Positions 27,928 through 37,382 of a stretch of DNA of 64,000 nucleotides are shown piece by piece. The stretch comes from Hyphomicrobiales bacterium (GTDB lineage: Bacteria > Pseudomonadota > Alphaproteobacteria > Rhizobiales > HXMU1428-3). Under the pieces are notes generated by a model, which saw nothing but the letters and a program-made list of their open reading frames with translations, had not been told where the DNA came from and ran no database searches. Position numbers and translations under genes: made by a program. Location of the stretch: NCBI GenBank assembly GCA_021775425.1, contig JAJFHX010000004.1, positions 1-64,000 on the forward strand. Direction: 5' to 3'. Every line of letters starts with the position of its first letter. The first letter of the stretch is position 1.

Positions 27928-28590
27928 TCAGTTACAGACTTGATAGGTGCCTTCAACATATTGGCCAACTGAGCAGACAATGCCGCCCCAATGATAACCA
28001 ATGCGGCCGCGGTATTTAATTTTAAACCATGGGCGATCCTGGAACATTTCGCCGGTTGGGCCAAGCAGGGTGATGCGCTCGCCTTCTCTTAATGATGCTT
28101 TTTTTCTGTAATGCTGTCCGGGCCCGGCGCGCACAATACCGCCCCATGATTTGGCAATTCTTGGATAGGTAATCGCCTGCTGGTGATGCTGTTGTTGTTG
28201 ATTATTTGCGACCCGTCGGCAATGATCATCTGTTTGCCCTTGTGTGCCAACCAAAGCTGTATCGCCTTTGACATGCAAGACCCAGTTGCCATCAGTGTAT
28301 CTTACGCCTGAACCAGAGCGGACATTTTCAAGCACGATTTTTGGTGAGCTGTCATGTGAGATAATGGCGATTGAGGTGGTGTTTGTATTGATAAATTCAA
28401 CAATCAGCGGGATGCCTTCATTGCAGCTATATTCCACCCGGGTTGTATCCGCCGCCATTGCTGCGCTGTTCGTTAACAGTGAAATCGCAAACAGTGTGCT
28501 GAAAAATTTCAGGGAAAATGCCAACAGAGGCGTTAAAACCCATGCGGCGATGTTTTTAAAAATACGCCCTATTAGAAATTGAATTTGCAT
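27928..28590 (-). CDS. Exported SH3-like domain protein
   Basis: Hydrophobic N-terminus; C-terminal SH3b-like SWGGIVRAGPGQHYRKKASLREGERITLLGPTGEMFQDRPWFKIKYRGRIGYHWGGIVC. Confidence 0.72.
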   Translation of the reverse strand: MQIQFLIGRIFKNIAAWVLTPLLAFSLKFFSTLFAISLLTNSAAMAADTTRVEYSCNEGIPLIVEFINTNTTSIAIISHDSSPKIVLENVRSGSGVRYTDGNWVLHVKGDTALVGTQGQTDDHCRRVANNQQQQHHQQAITYPRIAKSWGGIVRAGPGQHYRKKASLREGERITLLGPTGEMFQDRPWFKIKYRGRIGYHWGGIVCSVGQYVEGTYQVCN

Positions 28591-28743
28591 GGTTTTTCCT
28601 TCTCATTGAGGTTGGCTGGCAGCCTTTATTTTTGTGAATTTGCCGTTTTCATCACGATAAACAAGCTTATGGTTAATATACAGCGAGAAATCTCGATTTA
28701 CATTAAATCTTTGTAAGGTATGCGACAAATGGTTCCATTTCGG

Positions 28744-28779
28744 TTTGTGGACCTATAAAGTGGTTGGAAAGTGGTCTTA
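28744..28779 (+). promoter_or_regulatory. Candidate MocR/PdxR-type operator (direct AAAGTGGT repeats)
   Basis: TTTGTGGACCTATAAAGTGGTTGGAAAGTGGTCTTA: AAAGTGGT at 28757 and 28768 (11-bp offset), plus TTTGTGGACCTA at 28744. Confidence 0.5.
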
Positions 28780-29038
28780 TTTTTAGTATAAATCTGTTGA
28801 ATTCTATGGGTCCACGTTTTATGTCGTTATTTAGCGCTCATGTGCATACAGATTTCGTGCAGATTCCTGGGCTTTTGTCCGGCTATTTCTGGCATCACGA
28901 CACTGAAAACCTGGCTCATAAGACCGAATTAAAAATTATTTGAAATTATAAAATCAAAGACCGGAACGTACCGGCTGATCAGTTTGCTGCACCGGATGGA
29001 AATTAACTTTCCGGCTATTTTAAGGGTTTAATCATCTC

Positions 29039-30610
29039 ATGTATAAGGCTGCCGACAATGTGGCTTTGACGCTGGATACCAATGCAGGGCGCCCCTTGCA
29101 GGCGCAACTGTTTGAGCAGGTGCGGGCGATGATTATTGAAGGCAAACTAACTTCTGGTGCGGCCTTGCCTGCAACACGTGCTTTAAGCGAGCAACTTGGT
29201 GTTTCACGCAATACTGTTGTACTTGCTTATGACCGGTTACTTTCAGAAGGCTATATTGAGAGCAAGCGCTCGATTGGCACGTTTGTTAGTGACGCCATTC
29301 CATCAGGGGTTGATGCTGATAATGCAGAGCTGCCTCGCAATGACAACAAACAAATGATGGCAGAGATTGTCAGCCTGAAAACGCCTGAAGCTGATGTTCT
29401 TCCTGACGCTTGTTTGCCTTTCAGTTCTGATATCACAACTGAACAGAGCGCTTCCCATTCTGATGTTCGTGAAAACCATGCGCTAGATGCTGACATTGAT
29501 TTCAGGCCTGATTTACCGGATGGTGGGGCTTTTCCGCTGCGCAGCTGGCGGCGTATTGTGAACCGGTTATTGTCACTGCCTGAAGCCATTTATGGTCCGG
29601 CTCCTGATTTGCAGGGCATGTTTGAGCTAAGGCGGTCAATTGCTGAATATCTTGGGCCGGCGCGCGGTATTCTGACAAATCCTGATGAGGTGATTATTGT
29701 CTCCAATGCGCAAGAGGGGCGGAGTTTGTTGTGCCAGTTGCTGCTGGCCCAAAAAGGAACCTCCGCACTGATGGAACTGCCCGGCCCGGCGGGGCTTCAT
29801 GATTTATACAGCCATTATGACGCCGAGATATTTGAAATCGGTGTTGATGATGAGGGCATTCTAACCGAACAATTGCCGACCGATCGCCAAATTGGCGGCA
29901 TGGCTTATGTGACGCCTTCACATCATTTCCCGCTTGGGGTTGGCATGTCGCTGGCCCGGCGGGTGCAGCTTCTGGAATGGGCTTTGAAAGCTCAGACAAT
30001 TGTTATTGAAGATGAATCAACCAGTGAGTTTCGCTATGTTGGTTCGCCCCTGACGGCCCTAAAAGGGTTAGACACGCAGGGGAATGTGGTTTATCTCGGC
30101 AGTTTTGCGAAAACACTTGGTGTGCAAATCGGCTATCTGGTGGTGCCCCAGGGGTTGGTCAGGCCGCTTATGAAACTGAAAATCCTATCAAATTCAGGTG
30201 TTTCCTGGCTTGAGCAAGGGGCAATGGCTGAGTTTATGGATAATGGTGCTTATGAACGTCATTTGCGTAAACTGCGTAAAAAATGTATGGCAAAACGCGA
30301 TCTGATTGTCTCTTTACTAAAAAAACATTTTGGCTCTATCGCACTTGATGGGCTTGATGGTGGCTTGCATCTTATCTGGCATCTGCCGCCAGAGTATGGC
30401 ACGGCTAAATCGGTTGCCAAACACATGCGGGTAAAGCATAACATCGGGTTTTATACCACCTCGACGGGTGGGGCTTATTCTGGCCAGACTGACAAGCCAT
30501 ATGAACAGGCACTGATTTTGGGATATTCATCCCTGACGTTAGATGAAATTGAAGACGGCATAGAAAAACTGGCCGCTGAATTAAAGCAATTAACAGGAGC
30601 AAACGCATGA
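29039..30610 (+). CDS. MocR-family (GntR HTH plus class I aminotransferase-like) PLP-dependent regulator
   Basis: wHTH PLQAQLFEQVRAMIIEGKLTSGAALPATRALSEQLGVSRNTVVLAYDRLLSEGYIESKRSIGTFV; aminotransferase domain with GSFAKTLGVQIGYLVVP (PLP-Lys motif). Confidence 0.94.
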   Translation: MYKAADNVALTLDTNAGRPLQAQLFEQVRAMIIEGKLTSGAALPATRALSEQLGVSRNTVVLAYDRLLSEGYIESKRSIGTFVSDAIPSGVDADNAELPRNDNKQMMAEIVSLKTPEADVLPDACLPFSSDITTEQSASHSDVRENHALDADIDFRPDLPDGGAFPLRSWRRIVNRLLSLPEAIYGPAPDLQGMFELRRSIAEYLGPARGILTNPDEVIIVSNAQEGRSLLCQLLLAQKGTSALMELPGPAGLHDLYSHYDAEIFEIGVDDEGILTEQLPTDRQIGGMAYVTPSHHFPLGVGMSLARRVQLLEWALKAQTIVIEDESTSEFRYVGSPLTALKGLDTQGNVVYLGSFAKTLGVQIGYLVVPQGLVRPLMKLKILSNSGVSWLEQGAMAEFMDNGAYERHLRKLRKKCMAKRDLIVSLLKKHFGSIALDGLDGGLHLIWHLPPEYGTAKSVAKHMRVKHNIGFYTTSTGGAYSGQTDKPYEQALILGYSSLTLDEIEDGIEKLAAELKQLTGANA

Positions 30611-32589
30611 ATGGAAGCCTTATAGAGATCGGGCTTGGCGCGACAAGCATAGCGCTTGTGCTTTCTGTTGCCGCCGTGGTGCTTTCGTTTCTTTCACTGC
30701 AGCGCGGTGCGCCGGCGTTTTTGCACTCAGCCCGCCATGCGATGATTTTAAATGCCCTTCTTATTACGCTTGGCTGTTTTACGATTGTCTGGTCTTTTGT
30801 GATTAAAGACTTTTCCGTTCTTTATGTGGCGCAGAATTCCAACAGCCAGTTGCCTTTGCTGTACCGGCTAACGGCATTGTGGGGCGCGCATGAAGGGTCA
30901 TTGATGTTGTGGCTCTGGTTTCTGGCCAGTTTTACAGCGATTGCCGTTTTAGTGCACTGGAAGAGCCATCCGCTTTCCATGCCCTATGTGATCATGACGC
31001 TGGCTGGGCTGCAATTTGGTTTTCTTGTGTTTATTCTGTTTCTCTCTAACCCGTTTATTGAGGTGCATCCTGCGATGCCTGACGGGCGCGACCTTAACCC
31101 GTTGCTACAAGACCCGGGCCTCGCGTTTCACCCGCCGACGCTTTATATGGGCTATGTTGCGTTTTCAGTGCCGTTTGCGTTTGCCATTGCCGCGCTGGCG
31201 CGGGGGCAATCTGGCCGGGAATGGGTGGTGACTACAAGACGCTGGACATTGTTCGCATGGGTTGCCTTAACCAGCGGGATTTTGCTTGGCGGGTACTGGG
31301 CTTATTATGAGCTTGGCTGGGGTGGATACTGGGCGTGGGACCCGGTTGAAAACGCGTCGCTGATGCCATGGCTAACCGGTACCGCTTTTCTTCATTCGAT
31401 TATGGCGCAAGATCAGCGCAACCTGTTTCAGACATGGAATGTGTTTTTGATCATCACGACCTTTGGTCTTTCCCTGCTTGGTACATTTCTTGTGCGCTCG
31501 GGTGTGCTGACCTCTGTTCATTCATTCGCCGCTGACCCGGGACGGGGTGCTTATATTCTCGGATTTTTGATCGTTGTTTCTGTTATCAGTTATGGTCTGC
31601 TGATCTGGCGGGGCAACCGGCTGGTTGGGCCGCACAAGGTTTCCAATCTTGTATCGCGTGAATCTGCACTTTTATATAATAACCTGATGTTTGTTGCGGC
31701 AGCTGTTATTGTGCTGACTGGCACGCTTTATCCTCTGGCAATTGAAATATTAACCGGTGAGCGAGTATCAGTTGCAGCTCCTTATTTTAATAAGGTGATG
31801 GCACCTTTGATGCTTGGCATTGTTTTGCTAATGGGGCTTGGGCCGCTTATTCCGTGGCGCAAATCTAATTTTGCGAAACTTCGCAAACAGTTTGCGCTGC
31901 CTGCCGGGCTGGCGGTTGCGATTGCCATTATTGCTTATTTCCTAGGGGCGACTGACATCATCGCGATGCTGGCAATAGGTTTAATTGGCTTTGTGTTTGC
32001 TGCGACGATGATGGATATCATTGCTGCCGTTAAGGCCAATATGCGGGTGACTGAGCGCAGTTGGAGCCGCAGCCTTTCTAGCCTAGCGATGAACAATCAG
32101 CGGCGTTATGGCGGGTTTATTGTGCATCTTGGTACGTTGGTGCTGATTATTGGTGTGGTTGGTTCTGCCTTTTTCAAAGAGGAGGCGACTGTGACACTTA
32201 AACCCGGTGACCAGGTCATCAGCGGGCCTTATGTTCTCACCTACAAAGCGATTACGCCGCAAAAGGGGCCGAATTATACTGAGCGGATGGCCTTTTTTGA
32301 GTGGAAAAAAGATGATGGGACAACCGGCACGCTCACCCCTTCAAAACGGCACTATCCTGTGACCAGTACTGTGACAACAGAAGCTTCCATTCTTTCGACG
32401 ATGCTGGGTGATCTTTATGTGGTGCTTGGGAACGAACATGGCAAGGAAGAAGTGACCACAAGGGTGTTCTGGAATCCGCTTGTTAACTGGATCTGGATTG
32501 GCTGGCTGATTGTTTTACTCGGCGTGTTTTTTGCCATGACCAAAAAAGCGCCGAAGATTGTAACGCAACCAAAAGAGGCGCTGGCATAG
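30607..32589 (+). CDS. ccmF: Heme lyase CcmF/NrfE family
   Basis: WGAHEGSLMLWLWFLA; LGGYWAYYELGWGGYWAWDPVENASLMPWLTGTAFLHS (WWD domain). Confidence 0.97.
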   Translation: MNGSLIEIGLGATSIALVLSVAAVVLSFLSLQRGAPAFLHSARHAMILNALLITLGCFTIVWSFVIKDFSVLYVAQNSNSQLPLLYRLTALWGAHEGSLMLWLWFLASFTAIAVLVHWKSHPLSMPYVIMTLAGLQFGFLVFILFLSNPFIEVHPAMPDGRDLNPLLQDPGLAFHPPTLYMGYVAFSVPFAFAIAALARGQSGREWVVTTRRWTLFAWVALTSGILLGGYWAYYELGWGGYWAWDPVENASLMPWLTGTAFLHSIMAQDQRNLFQTWNVFLIITTFGLSLLGTFLVRSGVLTSVHSFAADPGRGAYILGFLIVVSVISYGLLIWRGNRLVGPHKVSNLVSRESALLYNNLMFVAAAVIVLTGTLYPLAIEILTGERVSVAAPYFNKVMAPLMLGIVLLMGLGPLIPWRKSNFAKLRKQFALPAGLAVAIAIIAYFLGATDIIAMLAIGLIGFVFAATMMDIIAAVKANMRVTERSWSRSLSSLAMNNQRRYGGFIVHLGTLVLIIGVVGSAFFKEEATVTLKPGDQVISGPYVLTYKAITPQKGPNYTERMAFFEWKKDDGTTGTLTPSKRHYPVTSTVTTEASILSTMLGDLYVVLGNEHGKEEVTTRVFWNPLVNWIWIGWLIVLLGVFFAMTKKAPKIVTQPKEALA

Positions 32590-33195
32590 ATGGCTGAGCA
32601 GACACAAATAGTTATACGCTGGTGGCACTTTGCCCTGATTGGGGTGATGATCCTGATGTTTGTGATGTTTGCGGCTGGCCTTGGGCGGGATACCCGCTTT
32701 ATTCCTTCGCCGTTAATTGGCAAGCCGGCCTATGATTTTAAACTGAAGCAATTGCGGGCGGATAAAGAAATCAGTCTGTCTGATTTTAAAGGCACGGCGG
32801 TTGTTTTAAATTTCTGGGCTTCGTGGTGTGTGGCCTGCCGTGATGAGCATCATGTGCTGCTGGAAAGCGCGAAAAAATATACTGGTAAGCCGGTTCAGTT
32901 CCTTGGTGTGAACAGCAAGGACACGAAAAAGGCGGCGATCGGTTTTATGGAGCAGCGCGGCTTTTTCCCCTACCCCTCTGTGGTTGATGGGCAGGGGCGG
33001 CTTGGTCTTGAATATGGTGTTTATGGTATGCCGGAGACATTCTTTATCAATGAAAAGGGAATTATTGTTGCCAAGCATATTGGTGCGTTAACTCCTGAAA
33101 TTGTTGAAAAGAACATTGGCCTGACGGGCGCACTCGAACAAAGGGCTGTATCTATTTCTGATGATGCCTCTTCTAAGAAAGAGGTGCGCCAATGA
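32590..33195 (+). CDS. ccmG: DsbE/CcmG family thiol:disulfide interchange protein
   Basis: NFWASWCVACRDEHHVLLE thioredoxin-like CxxC; N-terminal TM anchor; abuts ccmF. Confidence 0.95.
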   Translation: MAEQTQIVIRWWHFALIGVMILMFVMFAAGLGRDTRFIPSPLIGKPAYDFKLKQLRADKEISLSDFKGTAVVLNFWASWCVACRDEHHVLLESAKKYTGKPVQFLGVNSKDTKKAAIGFMEQRGFFPYPSVVDGQGRLGLEYGVYGMPETFFINEKGIIVAKHIGALTPEIVEKNIGLTGALEQRAVSISDDASSKKEVRQ

Positions 33196-33692
33196 GAGTG
33201 AGCATAAAAATCATAATCGCTGCTTTATTTGTGATGTCTGCCCCTATTGCCGGGCAGGCGCAAGATGCGAATCCAGCCAAAGCTGAGACTGCTGCACCCA
33301 AAGTGCAGGTTGAGAGCCGGCTTGAAAGACAAGTGCGGAATATTGCCAGCCTGCTTCGTTGCCCGGTTTGCCAGGGTGAAAGCGTTTATGACAGCCATGC
33401 GGATGTGGCGGTTGAAATGAAAACGCTGATTGCAGAAAAAATCACAGCCGGGGAAACGACCGAGCAGATTTTGACCTATTTCAAAGACAGGTATGGAAAT
33501 TACATTTTAATGGAGCCACCGGCTGAGGGATTGCACTGGGTGATCTGGATTTTTCCCGGGTTTATGGCATTGCTTGGGGCTATGTTTCTGGTTCAGCACT
33601 TACGGTCCAGCGCCAAAGCTGAGCAACAACGTTTTGAGGAACAGGCAAAAAGTAAAGAGGCGCCGGGTGAAATTGAGGAACTCAGCCTATGA
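33192..33692 (+). CDS. ccmH: Cytochrome c-type biogenesis protein CcmH
   Basis: IASLLRCPVCQGESVYDSHADVAVEMKTLIAEKITAGETTEQILTYFKDRYGNYILMEPP. Confidence 0.97.
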   Translation: MRVSIKIIIAALFVMSAPIAGQAQDANPAKAETAAPKVQVESRLERQVRNIASLLRCPVCQGESVYDSHADVAVEMKTLIAEKITAGETTEQILTYFKDRYGNYILMEPPAEGLHWVIWIFPGFMALLGAMFLVQHLRSSAKAEQQRFEEQAKSKEAPGEIEELSL

Positions 33693-34609
33693 GTAGTTTA
33701 ATTGGCATAATCGCGCTTGGGGCGTTGACGCTGTTTGTGATGCTTTTGCCGTTATGGCAGCGGCGTGCTGACCGCTCGCTTGGAACGGGGCTTGAGACCA
33801 ATGATCTTTCCACTCAATGGGAAAATGAGAAAGACCGGCTTGTCAAAGAACAGCATGATCTGGACCTTGCCTTAGCTGAGGGGAAAATTTCTGAAGAAAC
33901 GCATGCTGTTGAACGTGAGCAGGTAGTTTATGACGCCAAGCGGGCGCTTGAACGGTTGCGCTTTGCCCGCAGTGAAAGTGAAAAGCGGGCCTCTAAAGCG
34001 AAACATAAGCCAAAAGCCTACCCTTTATGGGGGATGGGGTTTGCCGCGTCGATTTTTGTTGCAACGATTGGTCTTGTGTTTCACCTCAACGGGCAGGACG
34101 TGCAACGACAACTGACACAGGCGGAAGCTCAAAAAGCACCAGGACAGCCGGACATTCAGAAAATGGTTGCTGCCTTAGAAGAGCGTGTTAAAGCAGGTGG
34201 CAGCAGTCTTAAAGAACAGTTGATGCTGGCGCGTTCGTTTCTGGTGCTTGGCAGGCGGGATGAATCGATCTCGCTTTATAAAGGCATCGCCAAGGCGAAT
34301 AGTGACAATGTGCCAGCTCTTATGGCGCTTGGTGAAATTCACTTTAACTCCAAGACACCTGAAGAACAGTCGCAAGCGTTACAATATTTTGAAAAAGCTC
34401 TGGTTGTTGAACCTGATAAACCAGAAGCTCTTTGGTACAAATCTCTTGCCTTACTTCGAGAAAAGAAATTTGACCAATCCAGAACAGTTTTGGTGAAACT
34501 GAAAGAGATTGCCAAAGATAACCCAAAGGCGATGGAAGCGGTTACGCAATTGCTGACTGAACTGGATAAGAACCGGGCGAAGACCCAGAAAAACAATCCC
34601 TCTCAATAA
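33689..34609 (+). CDS. ccmI: Cytochrome c biogenesis protein CcmI (TPR)
   Basis: N-terminal TM plus [16 protein letters not shown]..., then TPR-like C-terminus; ATGA overlap with ccmH. Confidence 0.9.
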
Positions 34610-34655: not shown

Positions 34656-35915
34656 ATGTTTGAATATGACCAATGCCTTGAAGACCATATTAAGTCACTG
34701 CATGATGAGGGGCGTTATCGTGTCTTTCTTGACCTTGAACGTGTGGCTGGTCAGTTTCCAAAAGCTTACAATTTTGGCAGCTATACCAGTGTTGATGGCA
34801 AGTGCCCGCGCAATACGCTTGAGCCATTAAGCGACATCACCGTCTGGTGCAGCAATGATTATCTTGGCATGGGGCAAAACAAGGATGTGATTGAAGCGAT
34901 GAAAGAAGCCATTGACCGGCTTGGGGCCGGCGCTGGTGGCACACGGAATATTTCCGGCAATCACCATCTTATCGTTTCGCTTGAGCGGGAACTGGCTGAT
35001 CTGCATCAGAAGGAAGCGGGGCTGGTGTTTTCTTCCGGTTATGTTGCGAATGAATCGACCCTTAGTACGCTTTCAAAATTGCTGCCTTCTGTTGTGATGA
35101 TTTCTGATGAGCTGAACCATGCGTCAATGATCCAGGGGATTTTGCATGGCAAGGCTGAAAAGAAAATATTCAGACATAATGATCTGGCGCATCTTGAAGA
35201 AATTCTGAAAAGCATTGACCCTTCGCGGCCAAAAATTCTGGCCTTTGAAAGTGTTTATTCCATGGATGGGGACATAAGCCCGATGGAAAAAATCCTTGAC
35301 CTGGCAGACAAATATAACTGCTTTACTTTTCTTGATGAAGTACATGCGGTTGGCATGTACGGGCCGCATGGCGGCGGCATTGCTGAGCGTGAAGGACTGA
35401 TGGATCGTATTGATATTATTCAGGGCACGCTTGCCAAGGCGTTTGGGGTCATTGGCGGTTATATTACAGGTAAAACTTCAACCATTGACGCCATCCGTTC
35501 TTATGCCAGTGGGTTTATTTTCACCACAACGCTGCCACCGGCTGTGGCCGCTGGTGCGCTGACCAGTGTGAGGCATCTGAAACAATCAAATAAAGAGCGT
35601 GACCTGCAGCAACAGAGAGCTGGTGAGTTAAAAGGATTACTAGCGCAGGCTGGCATTCCCTATATCCATTCTGAAACGCACATCGTGCCGGTTATGGTGG
35701 GTGATGCGGTGCTGTGTAAGGAAGTTTCTGACAGACTGCTTGGGCAATTTAACATGTATATTCAGCCAATTAATTTCCCGACTGTGCCGCGGGGCACGGA
35801 GCGGTTGCGCATCACGCCTGGGCCATTGCACACAAGTGAGATGCTTGCAGAACTGGTGAACTGCCTTTCTATCATCTGGGATGACATTAATTTACCGCGA
35901 TCAGTAGCGGCATAG
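34656..35915 (+). CDS. hemA: 5-aminolevulinate synthase
   Basis: [114 protein letters not shown]. Confidence 0.98.
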
Positions 35916-35924
35916 GAGCTTTTC

Positions 35925-36368
35925 ATGACAGCCAGAAAAAAACGTATGGTGGTGATTGTCAGTGCTTTGGCGCTGCTTTCGGTTAGTGTTGGGCTTGTGG
36001 CTTTTGCTTTCAGGGATAATCTGGTGTTTTTCCTCACGCCGACAGATGTGATGGCGGGCAAAGCCAAGGGGGCTAACAAGCTTCGTATTGGCGGTATGGT
36101 TGAAAACGGGTCTCTCAAGCGGCTTGAAGATGGATTGACCGTTTCTTTCATGGTCACTGATTTCAGTCACTCAATACCTGTCACTTATACGGGCTTGTTG
36201 CCAAACCTTTTCAAGGAAGGGCAAGGAGTGATCGCAGAAGGCGCTTTCATTGGCGACGGAAAATTTCAAGCCAAGACCATTCTTGCAAAGCATGATGAAA
36301 AATATGTGCCGCGTGAATTGCAGGAAACCATGAAGAAAAAACCGAAATCTGAGGCTCAATCTTATTAG
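35925..36368 (+). CDS. ccmE: Cytochrome c maturation heme chaperone CcmE
   Basis: LRIGGMVENGSLKR ... VTYTGLLPNLFKEGQGVIAEG ... AKTILAKHDEKYVPRE (heme-binding His region). Confidence 0.97.
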   Translation: MTARKKRMVVIVSALALLSVSVGLVAFAFRDNLVFFLTPTDVMAGKAKGANKLRIGGMVENGSLKRLEDGLTVSFMVTDFSHSIPVTYTGLLPNLFKEGQGVIAEGAFIGDGKFQAKTILAKHDEKYVPRELQETMKKKPKSEAQSY

Positions 36369-36458: not shown

Positions 36459-37241
36459 ATGCAGAGCAATTCCGCACAACCGAAAATTTCTGGCCAGAAT
36501 TGTGAAAGCAAGGATGGTGACAATGTGTTGCATCCGACCTGTCTTGTTTGCGAGGTGAGAGCTTGTGGTCTTTGTTCTGAATTAAACAATGAGTCGCTCA
36601 TTAAACTGCAAAAAATCACTCGCACACGTGAATATAAAGCTGGTGAACAGATTTTTTGTGATGAAGAGCCTTTGCAGAATTATGCCACCATTAAGAACGG
36701 TATTGTTAAGCTGACCAAGATTTTGCCGGATGGGCGCCAGCAAACCATCGGGCTTGGGTTTCCCCCTGATTTTATTGGCAGAGCTTTCAAAGACACCAAT
36801 TCCTCATTTGCCATCGCGCTTACTGATGTGACCGTTTGCACCTTTCCCAAAGAGTTGTTTAACGGGTTTTTATCCAGCCTGCCGAAGCTTGAACACAAGT
36901 TGTTTGAGCTCACGCTAAATGAGCTTGATCAGGCAAGGGAATTGATGCTGATGCTCGGGCAGATGTCTGCGCTTGAAAAGGTGACAGGCTTATTGATTGG
37001 GTTTTCAAAACGACTGCATCATTCAAACCAGTTGCAGAATATTGAAAGCGATATAAACCGGTTTGAGCTGCAACTCTCAAGGGCTGAGATTTCTGATTTT
37101 CTTGGCCTGACGATTGAGACCGTTAGCCGGCAATTTTCGCTGCTTAAACAAAAGGGTCTGATTACGATTGAAAATCAGCGCCAGATTCATATTCTGGATC
37201 GCCCGGAGATGGAAGAGATTGCTGGTCATAGCCCGTTTTAG
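36459..37241 (+). CDS. fnr: Crp/Fnr family regulator, FNR type with N-terminal Cys cluster
   Basis: HPTCLVCEVRACGLCSELNNESL Cys cluster; cNMP-binding fold; HTH LSRAEISDFLGLTIETVSRQFSLLKQKGLITIE. Confidence 0.92.
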   Translation: MQSNSAQPKISGQNCESKDGDNVLHPTCLVCEVRACGLCSELNNESLIKLQKITRTREYKAGEQIFCDEEPLQNYATIKNGIVKLTKILPDGRQQTIGLGFPPDFIGRAFKDTNSSFAIALTDVTVCTFPKELFNGFLSSLPKLEHKLFELTLNELDQARELMLMLGQMSALEKVTGLLIGFSKRLHHSNQLQNIESDINRFELQLSRAEISDFLGLTIETVSRQFSLLKQKGLITIENQRQIHILDRPEMEEIAGHSPF

Positions 37242-37340: not shown

Positions 37341-37382
37341 TTGATATAGATCAATTCATAGCACCTCCCCCTCGCCTACTAT
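37341..37382 (+). promoter_or_regulatory. FNR-box promoter of ccoNOQP
   Basis: Perfect palindrome TTGATATAGATCAA (37341-37354); TACTAT -10-like hexamer at 37377-37382 at the spacing of a class II FNR promoter. Confidence 0.82.

Follow-up and report, generated by a model that had tools for sequence, protein, structure and literature searches.

The 69-bp element at positions 28747-28815 of the window (the whole stretch of 64,000 nt analysed here, positions 1 to 64,000 of the forward strand of contig JAJFHX010000004.1, assembly GCA_021775425.1, Hyphomicrobiales bacterium of HXMU1428-3) is, with a probability of about 0.7, an autoregulatory operator that governs the mocR-ccmFGHI-hemA-ccmE operon through a MocR regulator blind to PLP, and was inherited from a system linked to hydroxylamine. 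The position of the element, its exactly conserved spacing, its recurrence across the MocR clade, its uniqueness in the genome and the nesting of the regulator in a clade attached to haoAB, the hydroxylamine oxidoreductase genes, are established. The genome of the window (G000) was compared with 7 genomes sharing the region, which gives 8 same-genus mocR-ccmF loci, and with a wider set of 80 related loci, which supplied 74 mocR upstream regions outside the genus for a search with the half-site TGGNNYYA.

The candidate operator comprises three boxes placed around a -35/-10-like pair. Box 1 (GTGGACCTAT, 28747-28756, plus strand) reads GTGG(A/C)CCYAT in 8/8 same-genus orthologues, and box 2 (GTGGTCTTAT, 28771-28780, plus strand) is a direct repeat 24 bp downstream of it, with the form KTGGNCTTAT in the same eight. 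Box 3 (ATGGGTCCAC, 28806-28815, minus strand), also found in 8/8 loci, is an inverted copy of box 1 whose half-site starts at +35 from box 2. The putative promoter on the plus strand (28764-28792) consists of TTGGAA at 28764-28769, a 17-nt spacer and TATAAA at 28787-28792; the pair was read by eye, and the scan with the sigma-70 consensus called no matching plus-strand promoter. The TTGRAA element beside box 2 is kept in all eight loci and the -10 hexamer is less conserved. Box 2 sits within the 17-nt spacer of this putative promoter, and box 3 follows shortly after the expected start, an arrangement that would suit repression. The search of positions 28550-29100 for an RNA leader or riboswitch gave no Rfam match. 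The mocR leader, about 220 bp long in the window and far shorter in three of the relatives (G001, G005 and G006), carries TCCGGCTATTT twice (28878-28888 and 29010-29020). The 24-bp spacing corresponds to 2.3 helical turns, so the direct boxes of this element and of the related operators do not lie on one face of the helix.

The mocR upstream regions of the genus vary in length and sequence, and a single gap-free block is common to all eight: GTGGACCYATAAA, then TTGRAAATTGGACTTAT, then TRGGTCCAC, the box spacing being identical and without indels in 8/8 loci. The original prediction had described TTTGTGGACCTATAAAGTGGTTGGAAAGTGGTCTTA at 28744-28779, with AAAGTGGT repeated at an 11-bp distance (28757-28764 and 28768-28775), and both are present as quoted. 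The repeats are thus real, but the conserved spacing is 24 bp and not 11 bp, and the inverted third box had been missed. The first AAAGTGGT (plus strand) falls in the variable spacer, which is not conserved among the same-genus relatives, and box 2 overlaps the 3' part of the second copy; the relatives have AAAGTTGT...AAATTGGA, AAAAGTGA... or AAATCCCT... at those places. As an element of its own the 11-bp pair is at chance level, as at least one exact 8-mer pair at an offset of 9-25 appears in 18% of simulations of the 448-bp intergenic region under a Markov model of the same composition (the window average is about 0.6 pairs per 448 bp).

It is nevertheless very probable that, as had been proposed, the element is the operator of the adjacent MocR. 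The prediction was to be abandoned if the repeats were absent upstream of orthologous mocR-ccmF operons; the element is present above all eight same-genus operons examined, and its architecture recurs throughout the clade. The assignment is further supported by the uniqueness of the 28747-28815 element in the genome. The pattern TGGNNYYAT-N15-TGGNNYYAT-N26-TRRNNCCA has one match in the 64 kb, the operator itself; in the whole genome the perfect GTGGACCYATAAA of box 1 is the sole copy found by the single-box scan, and the two-box pattern has one site with zero mismatches, again that of the window, the next matches carrying 2-3 mismatches. When a wider regulon was sought with these single-box and two-box genome scans, no excess over the reversed-pattern control was seen, and no further copy that might sit near other pdx genes was found.

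Outside the genus, an offset of 24 between TGGNNYYA half-sites occurs in 30 of the 74 mocR upstream regions (0.02 expected; the next best offset has 10), a count that is partly non-independent as many of these loci are Methylocystis near-copies. The 30 loci include Sedimenticola, Rhodospirillales, beta- and gammaproteobacterial and Hyphomicrobiaceae representatives, 29 of them fall in hao-bearing genomes, and in 10 the inverted box is present at +35. The 24/35 spacing is found again ahead of MocR genes of alpha-, beta- and gammaproteobacteria. Judged by its sequence, the window element has the composition expected of a MocR-subfamily operator, i.e. two to four repeated boxes in direct and/or inverted orientation. 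The direct-direct-inverted structure is the most frequent one in the MocR survey of Suvorova and Rodionov (2016, PMC5320631), accounting for 32% of regulons, and the sites described there share with the window two direct boxes, one inverted repeat and an autoregulated transcription factor gene. The window operator differs from them in its 24/+35 spacing: other MocR sites are described as spaced by whole helical turns, which 24 bp does not make up. Neither ccm-hemA (window) nor haoA (relatives) is named as a target in the text consulted.

The presumed target operon lies entirely on the plus strand. It starts with mocR (29039-30610), encoding a GntR-type wHTH (PF00392) and an aminotransferase-like domain (Aminotran_1_2, PF00155), which overlaps by 4 bp with ccmF for the heme lyase subunit (30607-32589; TIGR00353 above cutoff, the only copy found in the genome). 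The following genes, near-contiguous through ccmE, are ccmG (DsbE-like, 32590-33195; TIGR00385 slightly under cutoff, assigned also by gene order), ccmH (NrfF/CcmH-like, 33192-33692; TIGR03147 below cutoff, conserved gene order), ccmI (a TPR protein, 33689-34609, named by position and weak TPR matches), hemA for 5-aminolevulinate synthase (34656-35915; TIGR01821, 630 bits, the only copy found in the genome) and ccmE for the heme chaperone (35925-36368; profile match). The gene order of the genus, shared in the eight loci as far as the contigs reach, is PPK2, usually a divergent SH3/MliC gene, mocR, ccmF, ccmG, ccmH, ccmI, hemA, ccmE and fnr; the short contig of G006 shows PPK2, mocR and the start of ccmF only. 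Further downstream, a perfect FNR/anaerobox TTGATATAGATCAA at 37341-37354, in the gap that separates the FnrL-like gene (36459-37241) from ccoN (37501 onwards), is a probable FNR control site of the cbb3 oxidase. The genome encodes two further distant MocR-type proteins, about 13 kb apart (G000:C15:53928-55358 and 68497-69660).

The window MocR has the architecture of its subfamily, with a GntR wHTH at the N-terminus followed by a fold-type-I aminotransferase-like domain. Its AlphaFold2 model (pLDDT 85.7) has GabR and PdxR as the nearest solved folds in Foldseek, the best match being GabR (PDB 4n0b/4mgr). The intact PLP site that is typical of the subfamily, albeit outside its Pfam architecture definition, is missing. 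With reference to the residue roles described for PLP contacts in GabR (PMC6917764), the window protein retains the lysine (Lys358), has Ser327 in place of Tyr281 and proline in place of the tyrosine of PxYxG, and lacks the equivalent of Arg319. Throughout the genus Tyr281 is replaced by Ser or Ala (EDES/EDEA) and the xPxYxG tyrosine by Pro, Ser or Arg, and Arg319 is gone; the Schiff-base Lys312 is lost in one member (L075/L029) and, since it is retained in most of the genus, loose PLP binding may persist. In the MocRs from outside the genus that were compared, the EDDY motif, the xPxYxG tyrosine and the arginine following the lysine are all retained. In some hao-linked beta- and gammaproteobacterial MocRs Lys312 itself is replaced (Arg in L079 and L110, Asn in L096), the remaining PLP pocket looking intact.

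The two halves of the protein have diverged unequally within the genus, with identities of 82-99% for the wHTH vs 44-87% for the effector domain, whereas in hao-linked pairs both domains are similarly conserved. In genus pairs the ratio of effector-domain dN to wHTH dN is about 5-6, as against about 0.5 to 1.6 in controls. The effector domain is still under purifying selection and is not a pseudogene, because its dN/dS in the genus is about 0.10-0.15. In the mocR of G006 (L030:1620-1847) a TAA interrupts the reading frame after codon 76, immediately past the DNA-binding helices; a MAG error may be the cause, or the protein may naturally exist as a wHTH alone. The pocket substitutions argue with moderate strength for PLP independence of the MocR in the window genus, and a PLP-, ALA-, GABA- or glycine-dependent effect in EMSA would be unexpected for the window protein because most of the PLP-holding residues have been lost.

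The original prediction had called the repeats PdxR-like, and a functional PdxR that binds PLP, with an operator reporting vitamin B6 status to the heme and cytochrome c operon, would make sense because ALA synthase (HemA) needs PLP. The half-site TGGNNCTA is compatible with the AAAGTGGW(-/T)CTA quoted for PdxR (PMC4494728), the PdxR proteins of C. glutamicum and B. clausii have the same domain architecture, the latter is among the Foldseek matches, and the NCBIfam PdxR equivalog NF052282 gives 383.8 bits against a cutoff of 320. However, nine MocRs of other loci and settings were put to the same model and all score above its cutoff, hao-linked ones included, so the name is uninformative here; the half-site is a generic MocR one, and AAAGTGGWCTA with up to 2 mismatches is not in excess in the window (19 seen vs 23 expected). 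PdxR regulates genes of PLP synthesis or salvage (pdxST, pdxK, pdxU), but pdxS (PF01680) was not found in the window genome or its relatives and the genome has no second operator copy. Together with the degenerate PLP site, which in L075/L029 is without the Schiff-base lysine, and with the ccm/hemA context, this makes a PdxR function very unlikely. Even less credence is given to the possibility that the conserved block is a promoter plus the site of a different regulator, or a part of the divergent gene at 27928-28590. The block does overlap the -35/-10-like hexamers, within an intergenic region flanked by divergent genes, but the same spaced boxes are present upstream of MocR genes in unrelated contexts. 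The divergent gene, formerly listed as SH3, does have a weak SH3_3 match, preceded, however, by an MliC-type lysozyme-inhibitor domain, and the block most likely belongs to mocR, as it is also present in G006/L030, whose stretch from PPK2 to mocR yielded no SH3 homologue.

An effector pocket re-purposed for a new ligand (e.g. ALA, heme or another tetrapyrrole intermediate), with feedback on the sole ALA synthase, is an unlikely reading that deserves more weight. It would account for the purifying selection on a confidently modelled effector domain, and the operon carries the only hemA and ccmF found. Dimerisation alone could explain that selection, however, and the pocket replacements differ among L069, L075 and the window, with no new invariant motif seen. 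We prefer decay of a PLP sensor in a regulator that keeps its DNA-binding domain and site.

In the MocR tree the window genus (support 100) branches on a long stem (0.83) within a 33-row clade in which 25 rows are hao-bearing, a clade defined in this analysis and with moderate node support (SH-aLRT 89). The window MocR shares with it both the nesting among haoAB-associated MocRs and the 24-bp direct half-sites. Outside the genus, mocR of this clade commonly adjoins genes for an octaheme cytochrome (8 CxxCH, PF13447) and HaoB (TIGR04392 above cutoff), as in haoA-haoB-mocR-ccmFGHI-hemA (L108), the same with ccmE at its end (L077), haoA-haoB-mocR-ccmFGHI (L072) and mocR-ccmFGHI-hemA with haoBA beyond (L098); haoA was found elsewhere in the genome in 14 of 43 further genomes checked. 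No haoA was found at E 1e-30 in the 94% complete assembly of the window genome, and among 61 genomes searched at this threshold (the window's own and 60 relatives) HAO was present in 2, G001 and G038, and these are the two that carry a canonical mocR-ccmF. Within the window genus haoA is absent save in one genome, with a second, canonical haoAB-mocR-ccm cluster; G001 carries both a degenerate mocR with ccm-hemA and a canonical haoA-haoB-mocR-ccmFGHI. As the loss of hao and the loss of the pocket map to one lineage, their correlation counts once.

A related 24-bp direct repeat, TGGNNCCA...TGGNNCTTT, is present in 14 of 28 dereplicated haoA upstream regions (0.12 expected; the largest count at any offset in 300 simulations was 3), found with a relaxed pattern that was chosen after inspection, so that the Markov control covers the offset and not the choice of pattern. 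The strict TGGNNYYA had mostly no matches upstream of haoA, where the boxes end in CTTT, and about half of the haoA promoters are without the repeat under the pattern used. It also occurs in genomes in which mocR is far from haoA.

From the sequence evidence, there is a strong case that the adjacent MocR would bind boxes 1-3, a direct pair of half-sites spaced by 24 bp plus an inverted third, across the promoter of the operon, and its binding would set, most likely repress, transcription of the operon. Autoregulation and repression are moderately supported by analogy with GabR and EnuR. GabR of Bacillus subtilis, an autorepressor, has likewise a wHTH, an aminotransferase fold and direct repeats, but it keeps Lys312, Tyr281, Tyr205 and Arg319 and responds to PLP plus GABA, whereas most of these contacts are gone from the window protein. 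The operators of EnuR of Ruegeria pomeroyi overlap the core promoter, and its PLP-blind Lys302His mutant represses constitutively, which makes it an engineered counterpart of the natural loss in the window genus; EnuR differs in serving ectoine catabolism and in a pocket that is intact in nature (PMC8739950). In the window genus regulation would proceed in the absence of a PLP-based signal, given a decayed sensor pocket next to a preserved DNA-binding domain and site.

The hao-linked form, taken as ancestral, presumably uses its intact PLP pocket to sense a signal connected with hao. Hydroxylamine itself, which forms an oxime with PLP, is a plausible one, and the regulator may also act on haoA through the related 24-bp repeat. 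Hydroxylamine as the ancestral signal is speculative and drawn from two parallels. MpaR of P. aeruginosa, a MocR encoded in a respiration-related locus (ccoN4), is a proposed sensor of another small toxic nucleophile, cyanide, via a PLP-cyanohydrin, and the Lys and Tyr of its PLP pocket matter; it differs in the ligand, in its palindromic ATCTGAT site and in the intact pocket (PMC10790758). DnfR of the Alcaligenes dirammox cluster, as cited in PMC12575085, is a MocR regulator of a hydroxylamine-related pathway whose hydroxylamine oxidase, DnfA, is of another kind. The case for a Schiff-base sensor across the clade is weakened by L079, L110 and L096, which are without the lysine despite hao.

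Our literature search found no link of MocR regulators to ccm (ccmF) or haoAB. We put forward, as a tentative proposal that has the odds somewhat against it, that this MocR clade is the dedicated control of haoAB across alpha-, beta- and gammaproteobacteria, with ccm and hemA supplying the eight hemes, and senses hydroxylamine by an oxime on PLP; the window genus would have lost hao, its PLP sensor would have decayed, and the DNA-binding half and the operator would persist, exerting fixed control over the sole ccmF and ALA synthase. If true, hydroxylamine detoxification would gain a candidate regulator and operator, also in methanotrophs (Methylocystis) and in Sedimenticola, and the chemistry, simple and testable, would parallel what has been proposed for cyanide and PLP in MpaR. 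The natural series, from an intact pocket with hao to a decayed pocket without it, asks what purpose the PLP cofactor serves in MocR proteins.
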